From Streptomyces sp. NBC_00335 (GTDB lineage: Bacteria; Actinomycetota; Actinomycetes; Streptomycetales; Streptomycetaceae), in contig NZ_CP108006.1 in the NCBI RefSeq assembly GCF_036127095.1, forward strand, positions 5,013,501 to 5,077,500: a stretch of 64,000 nucleotides of DNA, written 5' to 3'. Shown in pieces: positions 4,216 to 51,234 of the stretch. Numbering within the stretch: position 1 is the first letter of the stretch; each line of letters begins with the position of its first letter. A model generated the notes under the pieces. The model had not been told where the DNA came from and made no database searches. It worked only from the letters and a program-made list of their open reading frames with translations. A program made the position numbers and the translations under genes.

Positions 4216-4255
4216 GGTGGCCTCGGAGTGCACCGCCGTGCACTCCGAGGCCACC
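4216..4255. terminator. perfect 18-bp hairpin terminator
   Basis: The arms 4216-4233 and 4238-4255 are exact complements around a CGCC loop. It sits just downstream of the minus-strand short chaplin and upstream of the sortase-anchored chaplin start, so it should separate the two transcripts. Confidence 0.85.
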
Positions 4256-4291
4256 CCGAGGAGGTCTGCCCTTGCGGGCACAGGCGCTTCG

Positions 4292-4525
4292 TCAGGCGTT
4301 GACGCAGGTGTTGCCGAACGAGGGGTTCAGCAGGGCGATCACGTTGACGGTGTTGCCGCAGACGTTGACCGGGACGTGGACCGGGACCTGGAGCACGTTG
4401 CCGGACAGGACGCCCGGGGAGCCGACGGCCTTGCCGTCCGCAGCCGCGTCGGCCATGGCGGGGGAGGCGGCACCGGCGGCCATGAGAATGCCGGCGGCCA
4501 GCACCACTGCCTTCTTGTACGTCAT
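4292..4525 (-). CDS. chp: short chaplin
   Basis: A 77-residue preprotein: signal peptide MTYKKAVVLAAGILMAAG to SPAMA, then one chaplin domain (GSPGVLSGNVLQVPVHVPVN, VCGNTVNVIALLNPSFGNTC, VNA) with the two family cysteines. GGAAGGAAACG before the ATG gives a good ribosome site. The mature sequence is nearly identical over the core to the chaplin at 5304-5558, consistent with duplication inside the cluster. It is exported, then assembles as amyloid fibrils at the hyphal surface. A strong terminator follows it. Confidence 0.93.
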   Translation of the reverse strand: MTYKKAVVLAAGILMAAGAASPAMADAAADGKAVGSPGVLSGNVLQVPVHVPVNVCGNTVNVIALLNPSFGNTCVNA

Positions 4526-4708
4526 TTGTTTTCGTTTCCTTCCCGCAGAGGTCTATCCGCTGCAGAAATAACAACGAGTGGGTCCGGGAAAAGAAACCGG
4601 GGATTTTTGCGCGCCTCCGGCCAATTCACTCAGATGCTCGTGCGTCCTGAATTGTGGCCGGATTCTTCTGGTTGCTCCAGGGTCCCTATTCGGGTCCCGA
4701 CATGCGGC

Positions 4709-34825: not shown

Positions 34826-34939
34826 GTGGTCTGCCTCCCTGATCCACCCCGTGGGTCCCCCTCCCACGCTAGGCGCGCCGCGGGCCCCCTGCAGCCTGGC
34901 CAAGGGCCCGCGCGGCAGGCCGGAGGTCCTGTGCGGAAA

Positions 34940-34975: not shown

Positions 34976-35097
34976 GTTCGGGGCCGTGGCGTCGACCTAC
35001 CGTCGAAGAGTCGGAACGCATGCACGCGTGATGTCTTGGCCCGGCCGTCCTGGCCGCCCCGGGACCGCGCGGCACAGGGACACACGGAGTGAGATCC

Positions 35098-37884
35098 ATG
35101 GGGCAGACGCTGGTTGTCATCGGCCACGGCATGGTGGGGCACCGCCTGCTGGAGGCGCTCGCCGAGCGTGACGCGCTCGCCGACCCGACCCGCTCCGAGC
35201 GCGGCGGCTGGCAGGTCACCGTCCTCGCGGAGGAGGAGCGCCCGGCCTACGACCGCGTGCACCTGTCCGCGGCCTTCACCGGCTCCACCGGCGAGGAGCT
35301 GTCCCTGGTCGAGCCCGGCTTCCTGGAGAAGTACGGCATCGACCTGCGCCTCGGCGACCCGGCGGCACTGATCGACACCACGGCCCGTACGGTCACCGCC
35401 CGCTCCGGCGAGGTGATCCGCTACGACGCGCTCGTGCTGGCGACCGGCTCCTACCCCTTCGTACCGCCGATCGACGGCGCCGACGCCGAGGGCTGCTTCA
35501 CCTACCGCACGCTCGACGACGTCGAGGCCCTGACCGCGTACGCCGCGCACGCCGAGGTCCGGACCGGTGTCGTCATCGGCGGCGGGCTCCTCGGCCTGGA
35601 GGCGGCGGGCGCGCTGCGCACGCTCGGACTGGCCACGCACGTGGTGGAGTTCGCACCCCGGCTGATGCCGCTGCAGGTGGACGACGGTGGCGCGGCCGCC
35701 CTGCGGGCCACCATCGAGTCCATGGGCGTCGCCGTGCACACGGGCGTCGGCGCGGCCGGCGTCCAGATCCACCCCGACGGGCGGGCGCAGGCGCTCCGGC
35801 TGACCAGCGGCGAGGAGATCGGCTCCGACATCGTCGTCTTCTCGGCCGGCGTCCGGCCGCGCGACCGCCTGGCCCGCGAGTGCGGCCTGGCCGTGGGCGA
35901 CCGCGGCGGGGTCGTCGTGGACGGCCACTGCCGCACCAGCGACCCGTACGTCTACGCGATCGGCGAGTGCGCGCAGACCGTCGACGGGAAGGTCTACGGG
36001 CTGGTCGCGCCCGGCTACCAGATGGCCGAGACCGTCGCCGAGGCCCTCGCGGGCGCGGGCGAGCTGACCTTCACCGGGGCCGACACCTCCACCAAGCTCA
36101 AGCTGATGGGCGCCGACGTGGCCTCCTTCGGCGACCCCTTCGCCCCCGAGGGCCGTGACGGGGCCGTATCGGTGGTCTTCTCCGACGCCCGCGAAGGCGT
36201 CTACAAGAAGCTGCTGCTGGGCCCCGACGGCGCGCTCCTCGGCGGAATCCTGGTCGGCGACGCGGAGGCGTACGGCTCGCTGAAGCCGCACGCCGGCCGG
36301 CAGCTGCCGGCCCCGCCGGAGGCCTTCATCCTGCCGTCGGGCGACGGCGTGGCGCTGCCCGGCGCGGACGCGCTGCCCGACGACGCGGTGGTGTGCAGCT
36401 GCCACAACATCACCAAGGGGCGGGTGCGCGAGGCGGTCGTCGCGGAGTCCCTCACCGACATCGGCGGCATCAAGAAGTGCACCAAGGCCGGCACGGGCTG
36501 CGGCGGCTGCATCGGCACGCTGCAAGCGGTCCTGGACGCCGAACTGGCCGCGGCGGGCATCGAGAAGCCCCGCGGGCTCTGCGAGCACTTCACCCTGACC
36601 CGCGCGGAGATCTACGAGAAGATCCGCACCGAGCGGATCCGCAGCTTCAGCGAGCTGCTGGAGTCCTACGGCGAGGGCGGCGAGGGCTGTGCCGTCTGCA
36701 AGCCGGTCGTCGCGAACGTCCTGGGCACCCTCGCCCCGGACCTCGGCATCGGGCACATCCTGGCGGGCGAGCAGGCGGCCCTGCAGGACTCCAACGACCT
36801 CTTCCTCGCCAACCTCCAGAAGGACGGCACCTACTCGGTCATCCCGCGCGTCGCTGGCGGCGAGATCACGGCCGATCAGGTCATCGCGCTGGGCGAGGTG
36901 GCCAGGGACTACGGCCTCTACACGAAGATCACCGGAGCCCAGCGCATCGGCCTCTTCGGTGTCCGCAAGGAGCAGCTGCCCGACATCTGGCGGCGCCTGG
37001 GCGGCGCCGGATTCGAGTCCGGGCAGGCGTACGGGAAGTCCCTGCGCGCGGTGAAGTCCTGCGTGGGCGCCCGCTTCTGCCGCTTCGGCCAGGGCGACTC
37101 CATCCAGCTCGCGATCGACCTGGAGCTGCGCTACCGGGGCCTGCGTACCCCGCACAAGTTCAAGGGCGGCGTCTCCGGCTGCCTGCGCGAGTGCGCGGAG
37201 GCGCGCGGCAAGGACATCGGCGTCATCGCCACCGCCAACGGCTGGAACCTGTACGTCAGCGGCAACGGCGGCGCGACCCCGCGTCACGCCGACCTCCTGG
37301 CCTCGGACCTGGACACCGCCGAACTCTTCGCGCTGATCGACCGGTTCCTCATGTACTACATCCGCACCGGCGAGCGCCTGGAGCGGACGTCCGCCTGGCT
37401 GGAGCGGCTCGGCGGCAGTGCCGCGGGGCTGGACCACCTCAAGGCCGTCCTGGTCGAGGACTCGCTCGGCATCTGCGCGGAGCTGGAGGCGCAGATGGAG
37501 CGCCACGTGTCGGCGTACGAGGACGAGTGGTCCGCGGTCCTGGAGGACCCGGCGGCGCTGGAGCGCTTCGGGACCGTGGACTTCGGTGCGGCCGAAGGCG
37601 CCGAAGGCGCGGCGCAGGCGCTGGAGCCGGGCCGCGGGCGGACCGCGGTGCTGCCGGACGGCACCGAGGCCGCGGTCTTCAAGGACCGGGCGGGCGAGGT
37701 CTACGCGGTCGGCAACCGGGACCCCTTCTCGGGAGCCGACGTCATCGCCAACGGCATCATGGGCTCGCGCGACGGGGTGCCCGTCGTGGCCTCGCCGATG
37801 CACAAGCAGGTCTTCGACCTGCGGACCGGCATCTGCCTGGACGACCCCGAGGTGTCCCTGCCGCTGGTGGAACTCAAGCCTTAA
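35098..37884 (+). CDS. nirB: NADH-dependent nitrite reductase, NirB-NirD fusion
   Basis: A 928-residue protein from ATG 35098 (GGAG 8 nt upstream). Order: FAD/NAD domains (LVVIGHGMVGHRLLEALAER, TGVVIGGGLLGLEAAGALR); a BFD-like [2Fe-2S] site (CSCHNITKGRVREAV, Cys433/435, KCTKAGTGCGGC from Cys461); ferredoxin-like and siroheme/[4Fe-4S] domains with Cys655, Cys661, Cys695 and Cys699 (KSCVGARFC, SGCLREC). Residues from about 842 to the end match the NirD small subunit (TAVLPDGTEAAVFKDRAGEV, NRDPFSGADVIANGI, ASPMHKQVFDLRTGICLDDP). The two subunits, usually separate genes, are therefore joined, with the first part of NirD shortened. It reduces nitrite to ammonium with NADH in the cytoplasm. The chelatase next door would supply siroheme, and NarK follows. 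Confidence 0.93.
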   Translation: MGQTLVVIGHGMVGHRLLEALAERDALADPTRSERGGWQVTVLAEEERPAYDRVHLSAAFTGSTGEELSLVEPGFLEKYGIDLRLGDPAALIDTTARTVTARSGEVIRYDALVLATGSYPFVPPIDGADAEGCFTYRTLDDVEALTAYAAHAEVRTGVVIGGGLLGLEAAGALRTLGLATHVVEFAPRLMPLQVDDGGAAALRATIESMGVAVHTGVGAAGVQIHPDGRAQALRLTSGEEIGSDIVVFSAGVRPRDRLARECGLAVGDRGGVVVDGHCRTSDPYVYAIGECAQTVDGKVYGLVAPGYQMAETVAEALAGAGELTFTGADTSTKLKLMGADVASFGDPFAPEGRDGAVSVVFSDAREGVYKKLLLGPDGALLGGILVGDAEAYGSLKPHAGRQLPAPPEAFILPSGDGVALPGADALPDDAVVCSCHNITKGRVREAVVAESLTDIGGIKKCTKAGTGCGGCIGTLQAVLDAELAAAGIEKPRGLCEHFTLTRAEIYEKIRTERIRSFSELLESYGEGGEGCAVCKPVVANVLGTLAPDLGIGHILAGEQAALQDSNDLFLANLQKDGTYSVIPRVAGGEITADQVIALGEVARDYGLYTKITGAQRIGLFGVRKEQLPDIWRRLGGAGFESGQAYGKSLRAVKSCVGARFCRFGQGDSIQLAIDLELRYRGLRTPHKFKGGVSGCLRECAEARGKDIGVIATANGWNLYVSGNGGATPRHADLLASDLDTAELFALIDRFLMYYIRTGERLERTSAWLERLGGSAAGLDHLKAVLVEDSLGICAELEAQMERHVSAYEDEWSAVLEDPAALERFGTVDFGAAEGAEGAAQALEPGRGRTAVLPDGTEAAVFKDRAGEVYAVGNRDPFSGADVIANGIMGSRDGVPVVASPMHKQVFDLRTGICLDDPEVSLPLVELKP

Positions 37885-38047: not shown

Positions 38048-39469
38048 ATGAGTTCCGCCAAGCAGGAAGCGCGCGCGGCGACCGCCCGAGTGCAGGCGCC
38101 CGACCCGGCGCAGTACCGCCCCGGTCGCACCATCACGGAGTGGACGCCCGAGGATCCGTCCTTCTGGCAGACCACGGGCAAGAAGGTCGCCACCCGCAAC
38201 CTGTGGATCGCGGTGCCGGCCCTGCTGGTGGCCTTCGTGGTCTGGCAGGTCTGGAGCATCACGGCGACCAACCTCAAGGACGTCGGCTTCGGCTTCTCGC
38301 AGTCCCAGCTGTTCTGGCTGACGGCCGTCCCCGGCATCACGGGCGGCACCGCCCGCATCCTCTACACCTTCATCGGCCCGATGATCGGCCAGCGCCGCTT
38401 CACGGCGCTCTCCACGGTCATCCTGATCGTGCCGCTGCTGTGGCTGGGCTTCGCGGTGCAGGACCCCACCACCTCCTACACCACGCTGGTCGCCATCGCC
38501 GCGCTCTGCGGCATCGGCGGCGCCAACTTCTCCTCCTCCCTGGCCAACATCGGCTTCTTCTACCCGAAGCAGGAGAAGGGCAACGCGACCGGCATCAACG
38601 GCGGCCTGGGCAACCTGGGCGTCTCGGTGGTCCAGCTGCTCACCCCCATCCTGATCACCACCTCGGTCCTGGCCATCGGCTCGGGCCAGAAGAAGGCCGA
38701 CGGCTCGGAGATCTACCTCCAGAACGCCGCGTTCGTCTGGGTGCCGGTCCTGATCGTCCTCGCGGCCGTCGCCTGGTTCGGCCAGAACGACCTGAAGGTG
38801 GCCTCCACCCCCTTCAGCCAGCAGAAGATCATCTTCAAGCGCAAGCACAACTGGCTGATGACCTGGCTCTACGTCGGCACCTTCGGCTCCTTCATCGGTT
38901 TCGCGGCGGCGCTCCCGCTGCTCATCAAGACGACCTTCCCGGCGTACTCCGTGGCCACCTACGCCTGGATGGGCCCGGCGCTCGGCGCGCTGGCCCGCTG
39001 GGCCGGCGGCTGGATCGCCGACAAGTTCGGCGGCGCGCGGGTGACGATCCTGTCCTTCGTGGGCATGGGCGCGTCGATCATCGGCGTGATCACCTTCCTT
39101 CCGGTGGGCTCCGACCAGGGCTCCTTCTACGGCTTCTTCTTCTGCTTCCTCTCGGCGTTCTTCTTCTCGGGCATCGGCAACGGCTCGACCTTCCGCCAGA
39201 TCCCGGTCATCTTCCGCGGCCAGCACCTCGCGGGCCTGACGGAGGGCACCCCGCGGTACGCGAAGGCGCTGAAGCAGGCGGAGATCGAGTCGGGCGCGGT
39301 GACCGGCTTCACCGCGGCCATCGCCGCCTACGGCTTCTTCTTCATCCCGGCGATGTTCGCCAACTTCGCCGTGACCAGCGCGATGTGGGGCTTCGTCGCC
39401 TTCTACGCCAGCTGCGTCGTCGTGGCCTGGTGGTTCTACGCCCGCAAGGGCGCGGAGGCGCCCAGCTAG
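38048..39469 (+). CDS. narK: NarK-type nitrate/nitrite transporter
   Basis: A 473-residue MFS protein of the nitrate/nitrite porter family with 12 helices. Family features: ATNLKDVGFGFSQSQLFWLT, PGITGGTARILYTFIGP, GIGGANFSSSLANIGFFYPK with GLGNLGVSVVQL, and WIADKFGGARVTILSF. The long cytoplasmic start (RTITEWTPEDPSFW) is typical of actinobacterial NarK. The ATG at 38048 follows GTTCAGGACATGCC, a weak site. It moves nitrate in or exchanges it for nitrite across the membrane. A second, similar transporter ends the operon at 51234. This copy pairs with nirBD, so nitrite import or export control may be its main task. Confidence 0.9.
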   Translation: MSSAKQEARAATARVQAPDPAQYRPGRTITEWTPEDPSFWQTTGKKVATRNLWIAVPALLVAFVVWQVWSITATNLKDVGFGFSQSQLFWLTAVPGITGGTARILYTFIGPMIGQRRFTALSTVILIVPLLWLGFAVQDPTTSYTTLVAIAALCGIGGANFSSSLANIGFFYPKQEKGNATGINGGLGNLGVSVVQLLTPILITTSVLAIGSGQKKADGSEIYLQNAAFVWVPVLIVLAAVAWFGQNDLKVASTPFSQQKIIFKRKHNWLMTWLYVGTFGSFIGFAAALPLLIKTTFPAYSVATYAWMGPALGALARWAGGWIADKFGGARVTILSFVGMGASIIGVITFLPVGSDQGSFYGFFFCFLSAFFFSGIGNGSTFRQIPVIFRGQHLAGLTEGTPRYAKALKQAEIESGAVTGFTAAIAAYGFFFIPAMFANFAVTSAMWGFVAFYASCVVVAWWFYARKGAEAPS

Positions 39470-39863: not shown

Positions 39864-41177
39864 GTGCTCGGCATGTTCCTGCAGCTCGCCGTCATGGTGG
39901 CGGCCATCGCCCTCGGGTCCCGTAAGGGCGGGGTGGCCATGGGACTCTGGGGGGCCGTCGGGGTCTTCGTGCTCGCGACGTTCTTCGGGGTCACCCCCGC
40001 CGACACCTCGGGCATCGTCGACGTCATGCTGATCATCCTCGCGGTGATCATGGCCGCTGCCGCGATGGAGGCGGCCGGCGGCATCGACTACCTCGTCGGA
40101 CTGGCCGAGAAGGCGATCCGCCGCAAGCCCAGCCGGGTGGTCTACGTGGCTCCCCTCGTGTCGTGGGTCTTCACCCTGGGCGCCGGCACCGCCCACGTCT
40201 TCTACCCCCTGCTCCCCGTCATCCACGACGTGGCCCGCGAGGGCGGTGTCCGCCCCGAGCGGCCCATCGCGGTCGCCTCCATCGCGGCGACCTTCGGTAT
40301 CACCGCCTCGCCCGTCTCCGCGGCCATGGCCGCCATGATCGTGATGTTCGACGGGGACGGCTGGAACCTGCCGCGGATCATGGCCGTCGCCGTGCCGTCC
40401 ACGCTGCTGGGCGTGCTCGTCGCCGCCACCGTGCAGTCCCGGATCGGCAAGGAGCTGGGACAGGACGCCGAGTACCTGCGCCGGCTGGCCGCCGGTGAGA
40501 TCGAGGCCCCGGCCCCGGCGGAGGCCGCCCCGCCGCTGCGGCCGCGGGCGCGCTGGTCGGCGTACCTCTTCCTCGGCGGGACCGTAGCCGTCGTCCTCAG
40601 CGGACTCTTCCCGGCGCTGCGCCCCGAGACGGCCAAGGGGCCGCTCTCGATGCCCGCCACCATCGAGATCCTGATGATGGCCGTGGCCGCGCTGATCCTG
40701 CTGCTGTGCAAGGTCGACGCCAAGCGGATACCCGGCACGGACGTGGCCAAGTCCGGTCTCGTCGCCGTCATCGGGGTCTTCGGGCTGTCGTGGCTGGGGC
40801 TGTCCTTCATCGGCGCCAACGAGACCCGGATCACCGGTGCGCTCGGCGGGGTCGCACAGGACCACCCGTGGTTCTTCGCGATCATGCTGCTGCTCCTCTC
40901 CGCGCTGCTGTTCAGCCAGGCCACGACCACCAAGGCGCTGATGCCCCTCGGGCTCGCCCTCGGTATCCCGGCCCCCCTCCTCATCGCGATGTGGCCCGCC
41001 GTGAACGGCTATTTCCTCCTCCCCACCTACGGCACCTTCATCGCGGCGATCAACTTCGACAGGACCGGCACCACCCGCGTCGGCCGCTTCGTCGTCAACC
41101 ACTCCTTCATGCTGCCCGGCCTGATCACCACGTGCGTCGCGGTATCCACAGGCTTCGCTCTGGTTCAGATTGTCTGA
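39864..41177 (+). CDS. DcuA/DcuB-family anaerobic C4-dicarboxylate transporter
   Basis: A 437-residue protein with about 11 helices; GTG 39864 follows GAAAGG. The start LQLAVMVAAIALGSRKGGVAMGLWG and MAAAAMEAAGGIDYLVGLAEKAIRR are characteristic. Then PSRVVYVAPLVSWVFTLGAGTAHVFYPLLPVIHDVA, read in two blocks, and RPERPIAVASIAATFGITASPVSAA match the Dcu family closely. These carriers exchange fumarate, malate or aspartate for succinate during anaerobic growth. In Streptomyces this is unusual. It lies in tandem with pflB and narK and shares their likely low-oxygen role. Confidence 0.88.
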   Translation: MLGMFLQLAVMVAAIALGSRKGGVAMGLWGAVGVFVLATFFGVTPADTSGIVDVMLIILAVIMAAAAMEAAGGIDYLVGLAEKAIRRKPSRVVYVAPLVSWVFTLGAGTAHVFYPLLPVIHDVAREGGVRPERPIAVASIAATFGITASPVSAAMAAMIVMFDGDGWNLPRIMAVAVPSTLLGVLVAATVQSRIGKELGQDAEYLRRLAAGEIEAPAPAEAAPPLRPRARWSAYLFLGGTVAVVLSGLFPALRPETAKGPLSMPATIEILMMAVAALILLLCKVDAKRIPGTDVAKSGLVAVIGVFGLSWLGLSFIGANETRITGALGGVAQDHPWFFAIMLLLLSALLFSQATTTKALMPLGLALGIPAPLLIAMWPAVNGYFLLPTYGTFIAAINFDRTGTTRVGRFVVNHSFMLPGLITTCVAVSTGFALVQIV

Positions 41178-41223
41178 CCGGCCCGGCCCCCTCCCGCCTG
41201 TCCCGCCAGGCTTTTCCGAGAAT

Positions 41224-41243
41224 CTTGTGAAAGTTTTCACAAG
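41224..41243. promoter_or_regulatory. Rex operator-like palindrome upstream of pflB
   Basis: CTTGTGAAAGTTTTCACAAG is a perfect inverted repeat, and its core TTGTGAnnnnnnTCACAA equals the consensus of the NADH/NAD+-sensing repressor Rex. It lies about 135 nt before the pflB start codon. Match is direct; function is inferred from the known Rex consensus in Streptomyces. Confidence 0.75.
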
Positions 41244-41258
41244 CGCACGACGGACCTT

Positions 41259-41282
41259 TGACCTGCCCAAAGTGCCAGGTCA
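41259..41282. promoter_or_regulatory. second inverted repeat upstream of pflB
   Basis: TGACCTG and CAGGTCA are exact complements separated by 10 nt. The repeat lies 15 nt after the Rex-like site. No regulator is recognised; it may be an operator or part of a promoter. Confidence 0.35.
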
Positions 41283-41315
41283 GGCGTGATGGGAGACCCT
41301 TGGGGCTGGGGATCA

Positions 41316-41332
41316 GGGGACTTTCGGGCCCC
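41316..41332. promoter_or_regulatory. DosR/OsdR-like hypoxia box upstream of pflB
   Basis: GGGGACTTTCGGGCCCC closely resembles the DosR/DevR box GGGACTTTxGTCCC and sits 47 nt before the pflB start. Together with the Rex-like site it suggests oxygen and redox control. The match is imperfect in the right half. Confidence 0.45.
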
Positions 41333-41378
41333 AGCTCGGGACCAACGCGGCGCCAAATGATCGATCAAAAGGCGTGCA

Positions 41379-43688
41379 ATGGATACAAGCAATGAGGCGA
41401 CTCGGAAGGTGCGGGCGATGACTGCCACCCCTGCGGAAACCACGAAGAACGGCGAAGCCTGGAACGGCTTCAAGGGCGGTCTGTGGCGCGACGCCATCGA
41501 CGTCCGCGACTTCATCCAGCAGAACTACACGCCGTACGAGGGTGACGACACCTTCCTCGCCGGCCCCACCGAGCGCACCACCGCCGTGTGGAAGGCGATC
41601 ACGGACAAGTTCCCGGAGGAGCGCGAGAAGGGCGTCTACGACGTCTCGTACGACATCCCGTCGTCGATCACCGCGCACGCCCCCGGCTACATCGACCGCG
41701 ACAAGGACCTGATCGTCGGCCTCCAGACGGACGCCCCGCTCAAGCGCGCGATCATGCCCTACGGCGGCTGGCGCATGGTCGCCGGCGCCCTGGAGACCTA
41801 CGGCTACCCGGTCTCCGACGACCTGGAGAAGGTCTTCACGGAGTACCGCAAGACCCACAACGCCGGTGTCTTCGGCGCGTACACCCCCGACATCCGCGCC
41901 GCCCGCAAGGCCGGCATCGTGACCGGCCTGCCGGACGCGTACGGCCGCGGCCGCATCATCGGCGACTACCGCCGCGTCTCCCTCTACGGCGTCGACCGCC
42001 TCATCGCCGTCAAGAAGGAGGAGAAGGAGGAGATCAACTCCCTCCCCGCGGGCAACCGCTCGCTGGAGGAGACGATCCGCCTGCGCGAGGAGCTCTCCGA
42101 GCAGATCCGCGCCCTCGCCGAGCTCAAGGCGATGGCCGCCTCCTACGGGTGCGACATCTCCGGCCCGGCCACCACCGGCCGCGAGGCCATCCAGTGGCTG
42201 TACTTCGCGTACCTGGCCGCCGTGAAGGAGCAGAACGGCGCGGCCATGTCGCTCGGCCGCACCTCCACCTTCATCGACGTCTACCTCCAGCGCGACATCG
42301 AGGCCGGCATCCTCACCGAGGAGCAGGCCCAGGAGCTGGTCGACGACTTCATCATCAAGCTCCGCATCGTCCGCTTCCTGCGCACCCCGGAGTACGACGA
42401 GCTCTTCTCCGGCGACCCCACCTGGGTCACCGAGTCGATCGCCGGCATGGGCGAGGACGGCCGTCCGCTGGTCACCAAGACCTCGTTCCGCTACCTCCAC
42501 ACCCTCTACAACCTCGGCCCGGCCCCCGAGCCGAACATGACCGTCTTCTGGTCCCCCCAGCTGCCGCAGGGCTTCAAGGAGTTCTGCGCCCGGGTCTCGA
42601 TCGACACCTCCTCGGTGCAGTACGAGTCCGACGAGCTGATGCGCCCGCGCTTCGGCGACGACACCGCCATCGCCTGCTGCGTCTCGGCGATGCCGGTCGG
42701 CAAGCAGATGCAGTTCTTCGGCGCCCGCGTGAACCTCGCCAAGACCCTGCTCTACGCGATCAACGGCGGCCGCGACGAGAAGTCCGGCGCCCAGGTCGGC
42801 CCGTCCACCGGAGCCCTCACCTCCGAGGTGCTGGACTACGACCAGGTCATGGCCAAGTTCGACGAGCAGATGGAATGGCTCGCCGACACCTACGTCCACG
42901 CCCTGAACGTCATCCACTACATGCACGACAAGTACGCCTACGAGCGCATCGAGATGGCGCTCCACGACCGCGACGTGCGCCGCACCATGGCCTGCGGCAT
43001 CGCCGGCCTCTCGGTCGCCGCCGACTCGCTGGCCGCCATCAAGTACGCCAAGGTCACCGCCGTGCGCGACGAGACCGGCCTCGCCACCGACTACACCATC
43101 GAGGGCGACTACCCGGCCTACGGCAACAACGACGACCGCGTCGACTCGATCGCCGTCTGGCTGGTCGAGGAGTTCATGAAGAAGATCCGCAAGCACCCCA
43201 CGTACCGCGGAGCCGAGCACACCCAGTCGGTGCTGACCATCACCTCGAACGTGGTCTACGGCAAGAAGACCGGCAACACGCCGGACGGACGCCGCGCCGG
43301 CGAGCCCTTCTCCCCGGGCGCCAACCCGATGAACGGCCGCGACACCCACGGCTACGTCACCTCGGCGCTGTCGGTCGCGAAGCTCCCGTACGAGGATGCC
43401 GAGGACGGCATCTCGCTGACCAACACCGTCACCCCCGACGGCCTGGGCCGCACCCCCGAGGAGCGGATCAAGAACCTGGCGGGCGTCCTCGACGGCTACA
43501 TGGCGGTCGACGGCTTCCACATGAACGTGAACGTGCTCAACCGCGACACGCTCATGGACGCCATGGAGCACCCCGAGAACTACCCGCAGCTCACCATCCG
43601 CGTCAGCGGATACGCGGTGAACTTCGTCCGCCTCACGCGCGCTCAGCAGCTCGATGTGCTGAACCGCACCTTCCACGGCTCTCTCTGA
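41379..43688 (+). CDS. pflB: pyruvate formate-lyase (formate C-acetyltransferase)
   Basis: A 769-residue glycyl radical enzyme from ATG 41379 (AAAAGG); ATG 41418, preceded by GGAAGG, gives a length nearer E. coli PflB and is equally possible. It is a true PFL, not another glycyl radical enzyme. It has NVRDFIQ-type [20 protein letters not shown], the adjacent catalytic cysteines in [20 protein letters not shown] (Cys433/434) and the radical loop RVSGYAVNF (Gly744), with [11 protein letters not shown] and [17 protein letters not shown]. It converts pyruvate and CoA to acetyl-CoA and formate without oxygen. Its activase follows. Such an oxygen-sensitive enzyme is unexpected in Streptomyces. Rex-like and hypoxia-like sites lie in front. 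Confidence 0.95.
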
Positions 43689-43710
43689 CCCCTCGGAGAG
43701 ACCCACGAGC

Positions 43711-43756
43711 ACGCGCGGCCCGGGGCCGGCCCTCGCCCGGCCCCGGGACCGCGCGT
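43711..43756. terminator. strong intercistronic hairpin between pflB and pflA
   Basis: ACGCGCGG-C-CCGGGGCCGG pairs with CCGGCCCCGG-GA-CCGCGCGT: 18 pairs with one small bulge and a 7-nt loop. It may partly terminate, so that far more lyase than activase is made, or protect the pflB message. Confidence 0.7.
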
Positions 43757-43798
43757 CACCAGATCAGCCCACGGAATCTGGAAGCTGGAGCACCTGCC

Positions 43799-44626
43799 AT
43801 GACCGTCCTCTTCGGTACGAGCCTCCCCGTCGGCCACGCCAACGCGATCAGCGTGAGCGCCGGCCAGACGCCCGCCGCCGCCGCGACGCAGCGGCCGAGC
43901 GAGGGCACGGTGCATTCCTGGGACCTGTCCACCGGGGTCGACGGCCCCGGGACCCGGTTCGTCACCTTCCTGTCCGGCTGCCCGCTGACCTGCCTGTACT
44001 GCCACAACCCCGACACCATGCGGATGCGCAACGGCAAGCGCACCTCGGCCGACGACGTCATCGCCGAGGCCCGCAAGTACACCAAGTTCATCTCCGCCTC
44101 CGGCGGCGGCGCCACCATCTCCGGCGGCGAGCCGCTGCTCCAGCCCGTCTTCGCGGGCGAACTGCTGCACCGGATGAAGAACGACCTCGGACTGCACACC
44201 GCCCTGGACACCTCCGGCTTCCTCGGGGCCCGCGCCACCGACGCGCTGCTGCGCGACGTGGACCTGGTGCTCCTCGACATCAAGTCCTGGGACCGCGAGA
44301 CGTACAAGAAGGTGACCAGCCGCCCGCTGGAGCCGACCCTGGACTTCGCCCGCCGCCTCGCCGACCTCGGCAAGGAGGTGCACCTGCGGTTCGTGCTGGT
44401 GCCGGGACTGACCGACGCCACGGAGAACGTCGAGGGCGTCGCCGCCTTCGCCGCCACCCTCGGCAACGTCTCGCGGGTCGACGTACTGCCCTTCCACAAG
44501 CTCGGCGAGAGCAAGTGGGAGGCGCTCGACATGAAGTTCACCCTCCACGACACGCCGTCGCCGAGCGCCGCACAGGTCGCCGAGGCGAAGGCGATCTTCG
44601 CCGCGCAGGGACTGAACGCGGTCTGA
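43799..44626 (+). CDS. pflA: pyruvate formate-lyase activating enzyme (radical SAM)
   Basis: A 275-residue radical SAM protein. ATG 43799 has GGAG upstream. The cluster motif is SGCPLTCLYCHNPD (Cys61, Cys65, Cys68; CxxxCxxC) next to STGVDGPGTRFVTFLSG; then ISGGEPLLQPVF, HTALDTSGF, VLLDIKSWD and LPFHKLGESKWE. These are the hallmarks of PflA, which uses S-adenosylmethionine to generate the glycyl radical on PflB. The N-terminus is about 30 residues longer than in E. coli PflA and looks flexible. Position directly behind pflB and the motif set make the call firm. Confidence 0.94.
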   Translation: MTVLFGTSLPVGHANAISVSAGQTPAAAATQRPSEGTVHSWDLSTGVDGPGTRFVTFLSGCPLTCLYCHNPDTMRMRNGKRTSADDVIAEARKYTKFISASGGGATISGGEPLLQPVFAGELLHRMKNDLGLHTALDTSGFLGARATDALLRDVDLVLLDIKSWDRETYKKVTSRPLEPTLDFARRLADLGKEVHLRFVLVPGLTDATENVEGVAAFAATLGNVSRVDVLPFHKLGESKWEALDMKFTLHDTPSPSAAQVAEAKAIFAAQGLNAV

Positions 44627-44731: not shown

Positions 44732-45826
44732 GTGTCCGAGCCCTCAGATGTCATCGACGCCGCGCCGCCTCCACCGGCGCCCGAGACCCCGCCGCCGGCC
44801 GGGCGGTCCGTCACCGCACGGGCCACCCTGGCCGGCACCGTCGTCTCGCTCCTGCTCATCGTCGCGATCGTGCTCGGCAGCAGGCTGCTGCGGGACTTCG
44901 ACTCGGCCCTGCTGCCCTACGCCGTCGCCACCGTCTTCCTGGCCTTCGGCGTGGCCTACCGGTACACCGTGTGGGTCTCGGCCCCCGGCGCGCGCCGCCT
45001 GTTCAAAAAGGGCTTCGGCAGCTTCTTCTCGGCCGACAACTTCCGCAAGGCGCCCACCGCCGTGCCGAAGATGATCGCCACCTACCTGGGCTTCCAGAAG
45101 TTCCTCGGCGCCCGCTCGCGCCCCCGCTGGATCGCCCACCAGCTGATGTTCTGGGGCTGCCTGCTCGCCGCGGCGATCACCTTCCCGCTGACCTGGGGCT
45201 GGTTCACCTTCACCGGCGACAGCGCGACGGGCCCCGGGTACGAGATGCGGATCTGGGGCATCAAGGTCCTCGGCTTCAACTCGCTGAACATCCTGGGCTG
45301 GCTGATGTTCCACGGCCTGGACATCGCCGCCGTCCTCGTCATCCCCGGCGCCTCGTACTTCCTGTACCGGCGGATGAAGGACCGCGGAGCCATGACCGGC
45401 CAGCGCTTCGCCTACGACCTGCTGCCGCTGATCTGCCTGATCGTCATCTCCGTGACCGGTCTGCTGCTGACCTTCTCCTCGATCTTCCTGCACGGCGGCG
45501 GATACGAGTTCCTCGCGATCCTGCACATGGTGTCGGTGGTGTTCACCCTCATCTACATCCCGTTCGGGAAGTTCTTCCACATCGTCCAGCGCCCGGCCGC
45601 CGTCGGCATGCAGCTCTTCAAGTACACGGCCCGCCAGGACGAGCAGGTCTTCCTCTGCAAGCGCTGCGAGGAGCCCATCGACACCGCGCCCTACGTGGAG
45701 AACCTGCGCGGCACGATGAAGGACCTGAAGCTCGACTTCGACGCCTGGGCCGAGTACTGCCCGCGCTGCAAGCGGGTCCTGCGCGGCAACGCCTACCTGA
45801 CCCATGTGAAGAAGGGCTTCAAGTGA
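44732..45826 (+). CDS. NarI-like b-type cytochrome with C-terminal zinc-ribbon motif
   Basis: A 364-residue membrane protein from GTG 44732. After a Pro-rich start there are about six helices. Candidate heme histidines sit in helices: WIAHQLMFWG, LMFHGLDIAAV, FLAILHMVSVV and GKFFHIVQRP. The layout resembles the gamma subunit of respiratory nitrate reductase and HdrE-type cytochromes, which pass quinol electrons to a soluble partner. Unlike NarI it ends in a cytoplasmic tail with CKRCEEPIDTAPY and YCPRCKRVL, two Cys-x2-Cys pairs likely to bind zinc or a cluster. Its stop overlaps the GTG of the molybdoenzyme, so it is the first gene of that operon. Nitrate reductase-like function is inferred from context. 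Confidence 0.7.
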   Translation: MSEPSDVIDAAPPPPAPETPPPAGRSVTARATLAGTVVSLLLIVAIVLGSRLLRDFDSALLPYAVATVFLAFGVAYRYTVWVSAPGARRLFKKGFGSFFSADNFRKAPTAVPKMIATYLGFQKFLGARSRPRWIAHQLMFWGCLLAAAITFPLTWGWFTFTGDSATGPGYEMRIWGIKVLGFNSLNILGWLMFHGLDIAAVLVIPGASYFLYRRMKDRGAMTGQRFAYDLLPLICLIVISVTGLLLTFSSIFLHGGGYEFLAILHMVSVVFTLIYIPFGKFFHIVQRPAAVGMQLFKYTARQDEQVFLCKRCEEPIDTAPYVENLRGTMKDLKLDFDAWAEYCPRCKRVLRGNAYLTHVKKGFK

Positions 45827-48153
45827 CCGCGACCGACCCCGCCAAGGCCGCGTCCCGGCCCGTGAGCATTTCCATCGACCCCTCCATCGCCCCGCCCGGC
45901 ACCCGCAACTTCCGCGACGCCGGCGGCATCCCCGCCGACAAGTGGCACGCCGACCAGAACGGCGAGACCCTCGTCCCCACCCACTGCTGCTTCTGCGGGG
46001 TGCAGTGCGGGATGTACCTGCGCGTGGACAAGGGCGGCAAGGTCTTCGGCGTGGAGCCCCGCAACCACGACATCAACCGGATGCGGCTGTGCCCCAAGGG
46101 CATCAACGCCTACCAGCAGGTCAACCACCCCGACCGGCTGACCGCCCCGCTGATGCGGCGCTCCCGGGACGAGGAGTTCAAGGAGTGCTCCTGGGACGAG
46201 GCCCTGGACTTCACCGTCTCGGAGATCCGGCGCATCCAGGAGGCCCACGGCAACGACGCCTTCGGGCTGCTGGGCGGAGCCAGCCTGTTCTCCGAGAAGA
46301 CCTACCTGGTCGGCAAGTTCGCCCGGGTCGCCCTGAAGACCAAGCACGTCGACTACAACGGCCGCCTGTGCATGGTCAGCGCCGCCGGAGCCAACAAGCT
46401 GGCCTTCGGCATCGACCGGGCCGGCAACCCCTTCTCCGACATCCTCCTCACCGACTGCCTGCTCATCGCCGGGTCGAACGTGGGGGAGTGCTTCCCCGTG
46501 ATGACCCAGTACCTGTGGGGCGCACGGGACCGCGGCGCCTCGCTCATCGTGATCGACCCGCGCGAGACGGCCATCGCCCGCACCGCCGACATCCACGTCG
46601 CGATCAAGCCCGGCACCGACTCGGCCTTCTTCAACGCCGTGCTGAACGTGGTCATCTCCGAAGGCCTCACCGACGAGGCCTACATCGCGGCGAACACCAC
46701 CGGCTGGGACGAGGTCAAGAAGACCGTCGCCGAGTACCCGCCCTCCCGCTCCGCGGAGATCTGCGGGGTACCGGCCTCGCAGATCGTCCAGGTGGCACGC
46801 GTCTTCGCCGGTGCGGACAAGGCCATGGCCTGGCACGCCCGGGGCATCGAGCACCACTCCCAGGGCGTCGAGAACTGCCTGTCCGTCATCAACCTGTGCG
46901 TGGCCACCGGACACATCGGCAAGCCCGGAGCCGGCTACGGCACCATCACCGGCCAGGGCAACGGCCAGGGCGGTCGCGAGCACGGCCAGAAGTCCGACCT
47001 GCTGCCCGGCGGCCGCTCCATCACCAACCCGGAGCACCGCAAGCAGATCTGCCAGATCTGGGGCATCGAGGAGTCCGAACTCCCCGGCGCCGGCACCTCC
47101 ATGATGGAGATGGTCTGGCAGATGCAGCGGCGGGAGATCCGCGGGCTCATCGGCATCTGCAACAACCCCTTCGTCTCCCTCCCCAACTACGCGGTGGTCA
47201 AGGACGGCTACGACACCGCCGAGTTCCACGCCCAGTTCGACTTCTTCCTCTCCGAGACCGCGGCCAACGCCCACGTGGTCTTCCCCGTCACCACCTGGGC
47301 CGAGGACGAGGGCGTGATGGCCAACGCCGAGGCCCGCGTGGTCAAGCACAACAAGGCCCAGGAACCCCCCGCCGGGGTGCGGACCGACACCTGGGTCATC
47401 TGCGAGCTCGCCCGGCGGCTCGGAGCCGGGAAGCACTTCGACTTCCCCGGCTCCCGCGAGGTGTTCGAGGAGCTGCGCGTCGCCTCCGCCGGCACGGTCA
47501 ACGACTACTACGGCATCACCTACGAACGCCTCGACGAGACGGGCGGGATCGTCTGGCCCTGCCCCTCCACCGAGCACCCGGGCACCCCCCGGCTGTTCGA
47601 GGACGGCCGGACCTACCACCCCGACGGCAAGATCCACATGCAGGTCGTGGAATGGCATCCGCCCATGGACGCCTACACCGAGGAATTCCCCCTCTCCCTC
47701 ACCACCGGCCGCACCGTCGCGCACTTCCTCTCCGGCAACCAGACCCGCCGCCTGGGCGCCCTCGTCGAGCAGACCCCCCGCCCCTGGGTGGAGGTCCACC
47801 CCTCGCACGGCTTCCGCAACGGCGAACCGGTCCGGGTGGTCACCCGGCGCGGCAGCGAGGTGTTCCCGGCCCTGGTCACCGAGGCGATCCGGCCCGACAC
47901 CGTCTTCATCCCGTACCACTGGCCCGTCCCGACGTCCGCGAACGCCCTGACCATCGACGCCCTCGACCCCCGCTCGAAGATCCCCGAGTACAAGGTCTGC
48001 GCCGCCCGGATCGAGGCCGCCGAGCGGGTCGACGAGGTCCCCGCCCCGCCCACCCCGCCGGGGCGCGAGGCCTATCCGGAAGCCCAGGTCTCCCGCACCG
48101 ACCCCCTGCCCCCCACGTCCCCGCAGGGCCGTGGCACGGCGGAGAGGAGCTGA
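45823..48153 (+). CDS. NasC/NarB-type molybdopterin oxidoreductase (nitrate reductase catalytic subunit)
   Basis: A 776-residue protein; GTG 45823 follows AAGGG and overlaps the cytochrome stop. N-terminal [4Fe-4S] site: HCCFCGVQCGMYLRV (Cys55, Cys58, Cys62) with LCPKG (Cys90). The Mo ligand position is Cys183 in NGRLCMVSAAGANKL. Then IVIDPRETAIARTADIHVAI, TITGQGNGQGGREHGQKSDL and VCAARI near the end. The pattern fits the assimilatory nitrate reductase NasC of Bacillus far better than formate dehydrogenase, because the motif CMVSAA replaces the CHxP region of the latter. No Tat signal, so it is cytoplasmic. Partners (cytochrome, ferredoxin subunit, Rieske) make the context respiratory. A formate dehydrogenase remains a weaker alternative. 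Confidence 0.85.
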   Translation: MTATDPAKAASRPVSISIDPSIAPPGTRNFRDAGGIPADKWHADQNGETLVPTHCCFCGVQCGMYLRVDKGGKVFGVEPRNHDINRMRLCPKGINAYQQVNHPDRLTAPLMRRSRDEEFKECSWDEALDFTVSEIRRIQEAHGNDAFGLLGGASLFSEKTYLVGKFARVALKTKHVDYNGRLCMVSAAGANKLAFGIDRAGNPFSDILLTDCLLIAGSNVGECFPVMTQYLWGARDRGASLIVIDPRETAIARTADIHVAIKPGTDSAFFNAVLNVVISEGLTDEAYIAANTTGWDEVKKTVAEYPPSRSAEICGVPASQIVQVARVFAGADKAMAWHARGIEHHSQGVENCLSVINLCVATGHIGKPGAGYGTITGQGNGQGGREHGQKSDLLPGGRSITNPEHRKQICQIWGIEESELPGAGTSMMEMVWQMQRREIRGLIGICNNPFVSLPNYAVVKDGYDTAEFHAQFDFFLSETAANAHVVFPVTTWAEDEGVMANAEARVVKHNKAQEPPAGVRTDTWVICELARRLGAGKHFDFPGSREVFEELRVASAGTVNDYYGITYERLDETGGIVWPCPSTEHPGTPRLFEDGRTYHPDGKIHMQVVEWHPPMDAYTEEFPLSLTTGRTVAHFLSGNQTRRLGALVEQTPRPWVEVHPSHGFRNGEPVRVVTRRGSEVFPALVTEAIRPDTVFIPYHWPVPTSANALTIDALDPRSKIPEYKVCAARIEAAERVDEVPAPPTPPGREAYPEAQVSRTDPLPPTSPQGRGTAERS

Positions 48154-48159
48154 CCCGCC

Positions 48160-48759
48160 ATGATGGGCCGCACGATCTTCATCGACCCGGGTCGCTGCAT
48201 CGGCTGCCAGGCGTGCGTATCGGCCTGCCGCGAGTGCGATTCGCACCGCGGCAAATCGATGATCCACCTGGACTACACCGAACCCGGCATGTCCGTCGCC
48301 TCCCTCCCCAGCGTCTGCATGCACTGCGAGGACCCGGTCGCACCCTGCGCCGAGGTCTGTCCCGCCGACGCGATCCTGGTGACCGCCGACGGGGTGGTCC
48401 AGCAGGCCGACACCACCCGCTGCATCGGCTGCTCCAACTGCGTCAACGCCTGCCCCTTCGGCATCCCGAAGATCGACCTCCAGGCGAAGCTGCAGATGAA
48501 GTGCAACCTCTGCTACGACCGCACCGCCTACGGCCTCGCCCCGATGTGCGCGACCGTCTGCCCGACCGGGGCCCTCTTCTACGGAACCCTCGAAGAGCTC
48601 CAGGCGGAGCGCCCCGGCGTGCAGGTCGCCGACTCCTTCGTCTTCGGCGACGTCGTCGTCCAGACCGGCGTGGCCATGGTCGTCCCCGCCGACAAGGTCC
48701 AGTGGCCCGTCCCCGGCGGCCTGCCCGTCGTCGAGATCAACGGAAGGGACGTCCGATGA
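48160..48759 (+). CDS. 4Fe-4S ferredoxin-type electron-transfer subunit
   Basis: A 199-residue protein behind GAGAGGAG. It has four cysteine clusters: RCIGCQACVSACRECD, VCMHCEDPVAPCAEVCPAD, RCIGCSNCVNACPFGIPK and KCNLCYDRTAYGLAPMCATV with CPTGAL. This is the DmsB/NrfC/HybA type, which carries up to four [4Fe-4S] clusters as a wire from a membrane cytochrome to a molybdoenzyme. It follows the catalytic subunit by 6 nt and overlaps the Rieske gene (ATGA). No signal peptide, consistent with a cytoplasmic complex. Confidence 0.9.
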   Translation: MMGRTIFIDPGRCIGCQACVSACRECDSHRGKSMIHLDYTEPGMSVASLPSVCMHCEDPVAPCAEVCPADAILVTADGVVQQADTTRCIGCSNCVNACPFGIPKIDLQAKLQMKCNLCYDRTAYGLAPMCATVCPTGALFYGTLEELQAERPGVQVADSFVFGDVVVQTGVAMVVPADKVQWPVPGGLPVVEINGRDVR

Positions 48760-49439
48760 GCGTCACCGAGCAGCCCCCTCCGCACCCAGGGCGTCAGGGC
48801 GACGGTCATGCGGACGGCGGGGCGGCCGCCGACGCCGCGATCGAGCAGCTGCGCGACCGGATCAGCGCCGATTCCCTGACCACCCGCCGTGATTACCTGC
48901 GGATCGTCGCCACCGTCTCCGGAGGCCTGGCCATCGGCGGTGTCGGCGTGGCCGCCGGCATCCTGCACCGGCACGGCGACAACGAGGGCCTGCCCGATCC
49001 GAAGAAGGTCGCCGACCTGCTGCCCCCCGGCCAGTCCGTGGCCTTCAGGTTCCCGGGCGAGGAGGACCGGGCCCTGGCCGTGCGCCTCGGGGACGGCTCC
49101 CTCGTGGGCTACTCCGCCGTCTGCACCCACCTGGCCTGCGGGGTGCTGTGGCGCGAGGACCGGGGCCCCGACGGGGAGCTGTACTGCCCCTGCCACGAGG
49201 GTGTCTTCGACGCCCGCACCGGCGAGGTGACGGCCGGTCCGCCGCCGCGCCCGCTGCCGAAGATCTACCTGACCGAGCAGGCCGACGGCAGTGTCTGGGC
49301 CGTGGCCACCGCACGGTCGGGAGAGCCGGCCAAGGACGCGCTCTGCCGGCAGTTCGGCGACTCCCACCCGGCCGAGTCCGCCCGCCTGGGCTGCCCCGGC
49401 TCGGCCCGGGCGAGCACCACCGAGAGGAGGCCCACATGA
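48756..49439 (+). CDS. Rieske [2Fe-2S] protein with Tat-like N-terminal anchor
   Basis: A 227-residue protein. It has a charged leader, then SLTTRRDYLRIVATVSGGLA and IGGVGVAAGIL, a Tat-like twin-arginine membrane anchor. The Rieske domain contains CTHLACGV (Cys123, His125) and CPCHEGVFD (Cys144, His147), plus the two disulfide cysteines. It resembles QcrA-type Rieske proteins, yet no cytochrome bc1 subunit is encoded nearby. It would transfer electrons on the outer face, or, if not exported, join the cytoplasmic complex. It is translationally coupled to the genes on both sides (ATGA overlaps). How it fits with the NasC-type enzyme is the main puzzle of this operon. Confidence 0.88.
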   Translation: MSVTEQPPPHPGRQGDGHADGGAAADAAIEQLRDRISADSLTTRRDYLRIVATVSGGLAIGGVGVAAGILHRHGDNEGLPDPKKVADLLPPGQSVAFRFPGEEDRALAVRLGDGSLVGYSAVCTHLACGVLWREDRGPDGELYCPCHEGVFDARTGEVTAGPPPRPLPKIYLTEQADGSVWAVATARSGEPAKDALCRQFGDSHPAESARLGCPGSARASTTERRPT

Positions 49440-49804
49440 GCGAGACACCGCTGCCGCCCCGCCCGGAGTACCACCCGGGCAGCGACCAGCCCCGGCTCAA
49501 CCGCCCGGTGCGCGAGCGGTACCCGCAGATCCGCTCCACCAGCGGGTACGGGGACCCCCGGGTCCGGAGCACGGGCCCGGGACCGGGAGCCGGCACCGAG
49601 CAGGAGCCCGAGCGCTCCTCACGGCTCAACGCGCGCCTCACCCTGGCCCTCACGGTCGTGATCGGCCAGCTCTGGGCACTCACCGTGACCGTCAACGAGT
49701 GGATGAAGGGAAACACCGGAACGGCCTGGTGGGGAGCGGGATTCCTGATCCTGTCCTTCCTCGTCGTGATCGGACTGTGGCTCCTCGACCCGAAGGACCG
49801 ATGA
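49436..49804 (+). CDS. small membrane protein of the nitrate-reductase-like operon
   Basis: A 122-residue protein from ATG 49436 behind GAGAGGAGG. A soluble, Pro/Arg-rich N-terminal half (LPPRPEYHPGSDQPRLNRPV) is followed by two membrane helices (LTLALTVVIGQLWALTVTVN and WWGAGFLILSFLVVIGLWLL). The linker NEWMKGNTGT lies between the helices. It overlaps both neighbours by 4 nt, so it is surely part of the operon, perhaps an assembly or anchoring factor. I do not recognise a characterised family. Confidence 0.78.
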   Translation: MSETPLPPRPEYHPGSDQPRLNRPVRERYPQIRSTSGYGDPRVRSTGPGPGAGTEQEPERSSRLNARLTLALTVVIGQLWALTVTVNEWMKGNTGTAWWGAGFLILSFLVVIGLWLLDPKDR

Positions 49805-51234
49805 CCATGTCGATACCCACGCCGACTCCGCCGGCGCCCCGCAGCCACCGCGCCGAGAGCTACAAGCCCGGCGCCACCATCGCCGACTGGCGGCCCGAGG
49901 ACGAGGGTTTCTGGCAGTCCAAGGGCCACCGGGTCGCCCAGCGCAACCTCTGGGTCTCGATCCCGGCCCTGATGCTCGGCTTCGTGGTCTGGCAGGTCTG
50001 GTCGGTGACCGTGGTCAGGCTGAACGACGTCGGCTTCGGTTTCTCGAAGTCGCAGCTGTTCTGGCTGACCGCCATCCCCGGCATCACCGGCGGCACCTTC
50101 CGGATCCTCTACACCTTCATCGGGCCGATGTTCGGCGAGCGGAAGTTCACCGCCTTCAGCACGATCATCCTGATCGCGCCGATGCTGTGGCTGGGCTTCG
50201 CGCTCCAGGACACCGGTACGCCGTACTGGGAGCTGGCCCTGATTGCGGCCGTGTGCGGCATCGGCGGCGCGAACTTCGCCTCCTCGATGGCGAGCATCGG
50301 CTTCTTCTTCCCCAAGCGGGAGAAGGGCAGCGCCAACGGCCTCAACGGCGGGCTCGGCAACCTCGGTGTGAGCGTGGTCCAGCTGGTCGCCCCGCTGGTG
50401 GTCACCGCCGCCGTGCTGGGTGCCCCCGCCGGCGGCCCGCAGCGCGACGCGAAGAAGAACACCGACGTCTGGCTGCAGAACGGCGCCTTCCTCTGGGTGC
50501 CGCTGCTGGTCATCATGGCCCTGGCCGCCTGGTTCCTGATGAACGACCTGAAGGTGGCCGCGGCCCCCTTCAGCCAGCAGAAGATCATCTTCAAGCGCAA
50601 GCACAACTGGCTGATGACCTGGCTCTACGTCGGCACCTTCGGGTCCTTCATCGGCTTCGCGGCCGCCCTGCCGCTGCTGATCAAGAACAACTTCGAGGGG
50701 CAGGGCTACCAGGCCACCACCTACGCCTGGATCGGCCCGTTCATCGGGGCCCTCACGCGCTGGGGCGGCGGCTGGCTCTCGGACAAGATCGGCGGAGCCA
50801 GGGTCACGATCCTGTCCTTCGTCGGCATGGCGGCGGCCCTCGTCGTGGTCATCTTCGCGCTTCCGGCCGGAGGCCAGGAGGGCAACTTCTGGCCCTTCTA
50901 CATCGGCTTCCTGGTGGCCTTCGCCTTCTCCGGCCTGGGCAACGGCTCGACCTTCCGGCAGATCCCGGTGATCTTCCGGGACCACCACATGAAGCAGGCC
51001 GAGGGCAAGGGTCCCGAGGCGCAGGCCGCGGCGCTGAAGCAGTCGGAGATGGAGTCGGGAGCCGTCACCGGCTTCTCCTCGGCCATCGCCGCCTACGGCT
51101 TCTTCTTCATCCCCGCGATGTTCGCGGCCATGGCCGTCACCAACGCACTGTGGATCTTCATCGGCTTCTACGCCACGTGCCTGGTGGTCTGCTACTGGTT
51201 CTACGCCCGCAAGGGCGCCGAGGCTCCCAGCTGA
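49801..51234 (+). CDS. narK: NarK-type nitrate/nitrite transporter (second copy)
   Basis: A 477-residue MFS protein from ATG 49801. It has the same family blocks as the copy at 38048: LNDVGFGFSKSQLFWLTA, PGITGGTFRILYTFIGP, GIGGANFASSMASIGFFFPK, GGLGNLGVSVVQLVAP and WLSDKIGGARVTILSF. Long segments are identical between the two (FSQQKIIFKRKHNWLMTWLY), so they arose by duplication. This copy carries an extra loop (GAPAGGPQRDAKKNTD). Translational coupling to the reductase genes suggests that it imports nitrate for that enzyme, or expels its nitrite. Confidence 0.9.
   Translation: MTMSIPTPTPPAPRSHRAESYKPGATIADWRPEDEGFWQSKGHRVAQRNLWVSIPALMLGFVVWQVWSVTVVRLNDVGFGFSKSQLFWLTAIPGITGGTFRILYTFIGPMFGERKFTAFSTIILIAPMLWLGFALQDTGTPYWELALIAAVCGIGGANFASSMASIGFFFPKREKGSANGLNGGLGNLGVSVVQLVAPLVVTAAVLGAPAGGPQRDAKKNTDVWLQNGAFLWVPLLVIMALAAWFLMNDLKVAAAPFSQQKIIFKRKHNWLMTWLYVGTFGSFIGFAAALPLLIKNNFEGQGYQATTYAWIGPFIGALTRWGGGWLSDKIGGARVTILSFVGMAAALVVVIFALPAGGQEGNFWPFYIGFLVAFAFSGLGNGSTFRQIPVIFRDHHMKQAEGKGPEAQAAALKQSEMESGAVTGFSSAIAAYGFFFIPAMFAAMAVTNALWIFIGFYATCLVVCYWFYARKGAEAPS

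Follow-up and report, generated by a model that had tools for sequence, protein, structure and literature searches.

A conserved gene module that probably encodes a distinct type of membrane-anchored, quinol-linked nitrate reductase in Streptomyces and other bacteria

The window analyzed here, a stretch of 64,000 nt from the chromosome of a Streptomyces (genome G000, 9.0 Mb in two contigs; C1:5013501-5077500), carries at 44732-51234 six plus-strand genes that overlap or abut one another, with a 4-bp overlap at four of the five junctions, and that probably encode a nitrate reductase complex and its transporter. The first gene (44732..45826) encodes a membrane cytochrome b of 364 residues with a predicted NarI fold and a C-terminal CxxC...CPxC tail. 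It is followed by a molybdenum-bis(molybdopterin guanine dinucleotide) catalytic subunit related to NasC (45823..48153, 776 residues), with an FS0 motif of the form CxxCxxxC...C and an active-site Cys-Met; by a 4Fe-4S subunit similar to NrfC, DmsB and FdnH (48160..48759, 199 residues), 16 of whose 17 Cys would fit four [4Fe-4S] clusters; and by a Rieske [2Fe-2S] protein (48756..49439, 227 residues) with an N-terminal Arg-Arg (RR) motif and one transmembrane segment. The last two genes encode a small, DUF6755-like membrane protein with two transmembrane segments (49436..49804, 122 residues; 24.2 bits against a cut-off of 27) and a NarK-family nitrate/nitrite transporter (49801..51234, 477 residues) that scores 323.4 bits with TIGR00886, over its cut-off. 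All the parts that the original prediction had named beside the catalytic subunit, namely the NarI-like cytochrome, four-cluster ferredoxin, Rieske protein, small membrane protein and NarK, are confirmed.

Among NCBIfam models, the catalytic subunit scores 776.6 bits with NasC and 569.2 bits with the formate dehydrogenase (FDH) alpha subunit, both under cut-off. The curated NasC model that it misses, NF047855, has a cut-off of 1100 bits, which is evidently a narrow one, since the ordinary NasC-like protein encoded at another locus of the same genome (L001) also falls short of it, at 795.9 bits. Of the solved sequences, FDHs score highest against the subunit (436.8 bits, vs 377.5 for NapA). In the alignment its RLCMVSA pairs with RLCMASA in NapA rather than with the Cys/selenocysteine-His of three solved FDHs. 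Both C-M-V-S and TGQGN are present in 35 of 36 complex-type rows, and C-M occurs in NapA and in all seven NasC-labelled rows, while eight of nine FDH rows have C-H with RGQNN and the ninth has C-Q with RGHNN (selenocysteine being read as Cys). The motif alone is no proof against an FDH, because an FDH with Gln at the position of the motif His is reported from Bacillus (PMC8808070). The one complex-type row without C-M-V-S and TGQGN, P0089 from Streptomyces sp. NPDC048639, is read as a degenerate or repurposed copy.

In a maximum-likelihood tree of 53 rows, 52 of them different, the 36 complex-type catalytic subunits form one clade (support 100/98) that sits within a 100/100 branch holding five actinobacterial NasC-labelled rows, and the nine FDH-labelled rows form a separate clade (100/98). 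The deeper branching order is less sure, as the tree program warned of long branches; we labelled the rows without annotation (L142-L144, L146, L153, L162 and L164) by scores, motif or background knowledge, and L134 was excluded. This phylogeny had been set beforehand as a test, and a grouping with FDHs was found neither in the tree nor in the motif. The subunit had been proposed to be of the NasC/NarB type, and that assignment stands in part: judged by its sequence, the protein lies on the nitrate-reductase side of the tree, in a separate clade beside actinobacterial NasC, and appears not to be NasC itself; the genome has an ordinary NasC-like protein elsewhere.

NarG has Asp at the molybdenum position, where the operon subunit has Cys. 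The FS0 motif of the latter, THCCFCGVQC, has four Cys, whereas FS0 of NarG is described as having a His ligand (PMC8301774). The NarG model TIGR01580 (cut-off 1084) is absent from the best 25 of the 26 matches of the subunit, and the only match over that cut-off in its own genome is another gene (C1:2912020); identity with the catalytic subunit of NarGHI was rejected on the FS0 motif and this model. Nap was rejected as well, given that the catalytic subunit has no RR motif within its first 80 residues and no transmembrane segment by hydropathy, and that no Nap partners (NapB/C, NapG/H) are named among the operon genes.

For the cytochrome, there was no Pfam match of any kind and a sequence search of the PDB gave none. 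Its predicted structure is NarI-like, and a bc1/b6f-type cytochrome b was rejected on the missing Pfam match and this model. A Foldseek search with this model gave no match at E <= 0.001; its top ranks hold NarI chains alongside receptors of the G-protein-coupled class, the latter taken as helix-bundle noise. The candidate haem histidines are conserved. In the ferredoxin subunit all 17 Cys are conserved in each of the 19 rows compared, which suffices for four [4Fe-4S] clusters, and the protein is nearer to the FdnH, DmsB and NrfC models than to NarH; it too has no RR pair in its first 80 residues and no transmembrane segment by hydropathy. The Rieske motif CPCH-x-G-x-F is found in 17 of 18 rows, the exception (L117) being truncated by a contig end, and an RR pair in all 18, of which 16 also fit a stricter pattern. 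This protein matches the QcrA, Rieske_proteo and AioB models, all under cut-off, and NirD is not among its seven matches. From its sequence the Rieske protein is likely exported by the twin-arginine (Tat) pathway and anchored outside, and because RR motif and transmembrane segment are confined to it among the three, the catalytic and ferredoxin subunits are expected on the inside and the Rieske domain on the outside. Rieske proteins of the bc1 type have Ser and Tyr, which raise the potential, at the sites of Gly and Phe here, from which we infer a lower potential that would suit menaquinol. The DUF6755 model is matched over cut-off at the same operon position in two other loci (L122 and L128), and the family is annotated in Deinococcus.

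Further bioinformatics analyses showed that the gene set is a conserved module found in six phyla and not the local hybrid that had been supposed. A scan of genome contigs with P0060 gave 548 relatives, and the best 80 loci together with ten actinobacterial stretches make up the 90 loci considered here (64 Streptomyces, 16 other named and 10 further actinobacterial loci, some of them with little flanking sequence, and one counted twice, L118 and L178 being identical). The order cytochrome, catalytic, ferredoxin and Rieske gene, defined by the query genes and allowing intervening open reading frames (ORFs), recurs in 84 of them. As for the others, L064 and L127 (contig start) are without the cytochrome, L114 stops before the Rieske gene, L126 and L130 have the ferredoxin-Rieske pair upstream of the cytochrome-catalytic pair, and L121 has the Rieske gene there. 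In the Verrucomicrobiales locus L120, an ORF of 458 residues (3334-4707), with no NCBIfam match at 1e-10, splits the catalytic and ferredoxin genes. The named holders belong to the Actinomycetota, Acidobacteriota, Verrucomicrobiota, Armatimonadota and Bacteroidota, two are unclassified, and the Gemmatimonadota are represented by a protein alone (P0087). Among the catalytic-subunit relatives listed is one from the laboratory strain S. venezuelae. Two Deinococcus plasmids have the identical six-gene order, the sixth gene being NarK-like in one (L160; 277 bits, under cut-off) and annotated as a major facilitator superfamily (MFS) transporter in the other (L161); a search of a plasmid collection with the cytochrome gave four records, all Deinococcus.

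The placing of NarK in the operon, also part of the original prediction, holds for the window and does not extend to the module, of which NarK is no fixed part: among the Streptomyces loci it lies near the complex in 25 of 64, among the other named loci in 7 of 16 and among the further actinobacterial loci in 3 of 10. For the NarK-family neighbours in Bacteroidota, Armatimonadota and Deinococcota, TIGR00886 is the best or second-best model, with scores of 223-277 bits against a cut-off of 311.7 (297.9 for a further one in G490). Among 150 Streptomyces genomes, that of the window included, a strong cytochrome match is present in 34, three of which are partial or split (G008, G038, G081); G077 has a remnant cytochrome and four further matches are weak. 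These partial, split and remnant genes suggest local loss of the complex in Streptomyces. In a phylum-level sample, 22 of 296 genomes have a match of any kind, several of these being weak.

We consider it likely that the operon encodes its own type of cytoplasmic-side, membrane-anchored, (mena)quinol-linked nitrate reductase. The original prediction of a quinol-linked nitrate reductase of a new type is likely to be right, in that the complex cannot be assigned to NarGHI, Nap or NasC, its nitrate activity and quinol linkage being what we infer. In the mechanism that we suggest, nitrate would be imported by NarK and menaquinol would be oxidized at the NarI-like cytochrome, presumably dihaem, from whose haems electrons would pass through the four [4Fe-4S] clusters of the ferredoxin subunit and the [4Fe-4S] cluster of the catalytic subunit to the cytoplasmic molybdenum site, where nitrate would be reduced to nitrite. 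The nitrite would then be exported or reduced, in the window by NirB(D). The DUF6755-like protein would be a small structural subunit of the assembly, and the Rieske protein on the outer face may feed electrons from the bcc/cytochrome c side into the quinol/haem bD side. Alternatively, the Rieske protein could take the first electron from quinol in a split resembling the Q cycle. In the full form of this idea, which we regard as rather unlikely, menaquinol would be split outside, with one electron passing via the low-potential Rieske protein and one via the NarI-type haems, both to nitrate; if true, energy conservation would exceed that of NarGHI, for which the complex would stand in across several phyla.

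Such a nitrate reductase would resemble several known systems in part. With NarGHI it shares a cytochrome of predicted NarI fold, a four-cluster Fe-S subunit, a catalytic subunit without export signal and a NarK nearby; unlike NarGHI, it has a NasC-like catalytic subunit, an Fe-S subunit of 199 residues, the extra Rieske and DUF6755-like proteins, and no narJ among the six operon genes. NasC and NarB, which share its Cys-Met motif, are the closest kin of the catalytic subunit, but the latter has its own clade, and its gene stands in a fixed operon together with those for cytochrome b, ferredoxin and Rieske protein. NasC of Paracoccus is reported to receive electrons from NADH via NasB and NasG (PMC5424462). 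In Streptomyces coelicolor, Nar1 has been proposed to work with the bcc-aa3 supercomplex, QcrC passing electrons to haem bD of NarI1 (PMC7931247), which by analogy could be an earlier case of a NarI-type cytochrome supplied at its outer side; Nar1 depends on a borrowed bcc complex, whereas the operon encodes a Rieske protein of its own. In haloarchaea, nitrate reductase genes are described as clustered with Rieske and cytochrome b genes (PMC4683180), but the haloarchaeal and Methanoperedens systems have bc1/b6f homologues and an outward-facing nitrate reductase, in contrast to the predicted NarI-type cytochrome and the catalytic subunit without export signal found here. ForCE of Bacillus subtilis, reported to be a menaquinone-linked FDH (PMC8808070), is likewise a molybdoenzyme of the same superfamily tied to menaquinone through an unusual partner; it uses formate, has neither transmembrane subunit nor haems, and is excluded as an identity for the operon enzyme by the motif.

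Granted a quinol-linked nitrate reductase, its role seems on balance mainly respiratory, and assimilatory in some lineages. A rival account, to which we give a smaller but appreciable chance, keeps the same enzyme and electron route and has the nitrite serve nitrogen nutrition by way of NirB(D) or NirA. It draws on the NirB(D) encoded 7 kb upstream of the operon in the window, on nirB within the flank of 8 of the 64 Streptomyces loci, on NasC as the nearest kin of the catalytic clade, and on the Verrucomicrobiales metagenome-assembled genome (MAG) with L120, where the complex is followed by genes for a CysJ-like flavoprotein (662.7 bits, just under cut-off) and NirA (748.3 bits, over cut-off). 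The Cyclobacteriaceae MAG G490, whose single PF00384 match genome-wide is the catalytic subunit of the complex, bears on the question in both directions. Elsewhere it encodes, as its sole NIR_SIR protein, a distant relative of NirA and sulfite reductase (233.5 bits vs a cut-off of 523; NirB 68.4 vs 578), which favours assimilation. NirB itself was rejected there, this protein being under every cut-off. Against assimilation stands the nos cluster upstream of the cytochrome gene in the same MAG, with NosZ at about 11 kb, NosD at about 9 kb and an ATP-binding cassette (ABC) pair at about 7.5 kb. The Streptomyces genome, moreover, already holds an ordinary NasC-like protein. In Algoriphagus (G489) and a second Cyclobacteriaceae genome the complex is flanked by sub-cut-off NarK-family transporters, molybdenum-cofactor genes and regulators, and nearby on the opposite strand Algoriphagus has NirB and a second molybdoenzyme fused to a NirB-like flavin adenine dinucleotide (FAD) part, which we read as its separate assimilatory system. 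That fusion (L168:14114-17629) is of 1172 residues and scores 556.8 bits with FDH alpha and 499.9 with NasC, both under cut-off. Finally, NarG over cut-off is rarer among the Streptomyces holders (4 of 34, the window's genome included) than among non-holders (46 of 116; Fisher p 0.0019 across the 150 genomes, a statistic that ignores kinship), and it is absent from both sets of non-Streptomyces holders (0 of 12, 0 of 14), the NarG of G497 being broken into two pieces.

The genes directly upstream of the operon in the window raise another reading, in which the complex would be a quinone-linked FDH that consumes formate from the adjacent pyruvate formate-lyase. Genes for the lyase and its activating enzyme (Pfl genes) lie near the complex in 30 of 64 Streptomyces loci, FDHs are, as noted above, the best match among solved sequences, and the known FDH with Gln for the motif His (PMC8808070) leaves the motif some latitude. 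We nevertheless consider this reading very improbable. The tree places FDHs in another clade, the NasC model outscores that of FDH, Cys-Met and TGQGN prevail where FDH rows have RGQNN, Pfl genes are near the complex in none of the 16 other named and none of the 10 further actinobacterial loci, and across the 150 Streptomyces genomes Pfl is unassociated with the complex (14 of 34 holders vs 39 of 116 others, p 0.42). On tree and active-site motif, the FDH reading was ruled out despite the adjoining Pfl genes, and a functional tie between the complex and Pfl was rejected for want of that association. It is just as improbable that the Rieske protein is a cytoplasmic, NasG- or NirD-like link to NADH and the cytochrome a mere anchor: the small Rieske-type NasG of Paracoccus is reported to connect NasB to NasC (PMC5424462) and nasC of Bacillus bataviensis to be linked with another Rieske-type gene (PMC3475470), but the operon protein has an RR motif, a transmembrane segment and QcrA-like rather than NirD matches, the window NirB has a NirD-like part of its own, and the candidate haem histidines are conserved.

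Each part of the predicted quinol-linked nitrate reductase is of a known kind, and on its sequence we would call the complex a further design of membrane-bound molybdoenzyme. Titles and the beginnings of abstracts, which cover the literature in part and so may miss an existing description, mention no such operon; the nearest published case met is that of B. bataviensis, where nasC is described with a hybrid cluster protein gene and a Rieske-type gene as neighbours (PMC3475470). Of the 120 cytochrome matches listed, most of those that bear a name are annotated 'MFS transporter', as is the cytochrome in the Deinococcus records. If the complex reduces nitrate, a membrane nitrate reductase has been overlooked in genomes whose annotation reads 'assimilatory nitrate reductase' or 'molybdopterin oxidoreductase' next to 'MFS transporter', and it may enable nitrate respiration in some bacteria that lack NarG. 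The complex would also offer a self-contained case for the question raised by Nar1, whether the Rieske/cytochrome c level can feed a NarI-type cytochrome (PMC7931247).

For regulation of the operon, a sigma-70 promoter scan found none, and no RNA family at gathering threshold and no tRNA was found in the window; one terminator-like site was found, inside narK, against an average of 1.7 in shuffled sequences. Patterns that we take to represent DevR/OsdR-like, Rex/Crp-like and GlnR-like sites occur 5' of the cytochrome gene in 1, 0 and 2 of 62 upstream regions, respectively. NirK was rejected as a partner of the complex, with 0 of 26 over cut-off and the nearest, in G493, at 295.8 vs 296.3 bits; on the strand opposite the cytochrome gene and some 1 kb away from it, G399:C6:79942-80697 (L175 region) encodes a protein with a NirK match of 189 bits (cut-off 296). 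In G490, a pair of hemerythrin-type proteins (L170:8343-9794), of which one carries a ScdA_N domain, is encoded in the interval from the nos cluster to the complex.

Upstream of the operon in the window, all on the plus strand, are genes for the pyruvate formate-lyase activating enzyme (PflA, 43799..44626; TIGR02493 287.1 bits), pyruvate formate-lyase (PflB, 41379..43688; TIGR01255 1190.2), a second NarK (38048..39469; TIGR00886 312.7) and an assimilatory nitrite reductase NirB with a NirD-like C-terminal part (35089..37884; NirB 964.6), all over cut-off; the NirD model covers residues 852-928 of this NirB at 65.2 bits, under its cut-off of 74.65. An ORF adjoining nirB on the minus strand (34103-34903) resembles what we take to be a CbiX-like sirohydrochlorin chelatase. 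Between the second narK and pflB lies a gene for an anaerobic C4-dicarboxylate transporter of the Dcu type, which with the lyase and its activase makes 39864-44626 an anaerobic-metabolism block in a Streptomyces. Within the 64 Streptomyces loci, NarK accompanies the complex only alongside Pfl genes (25 of 25).

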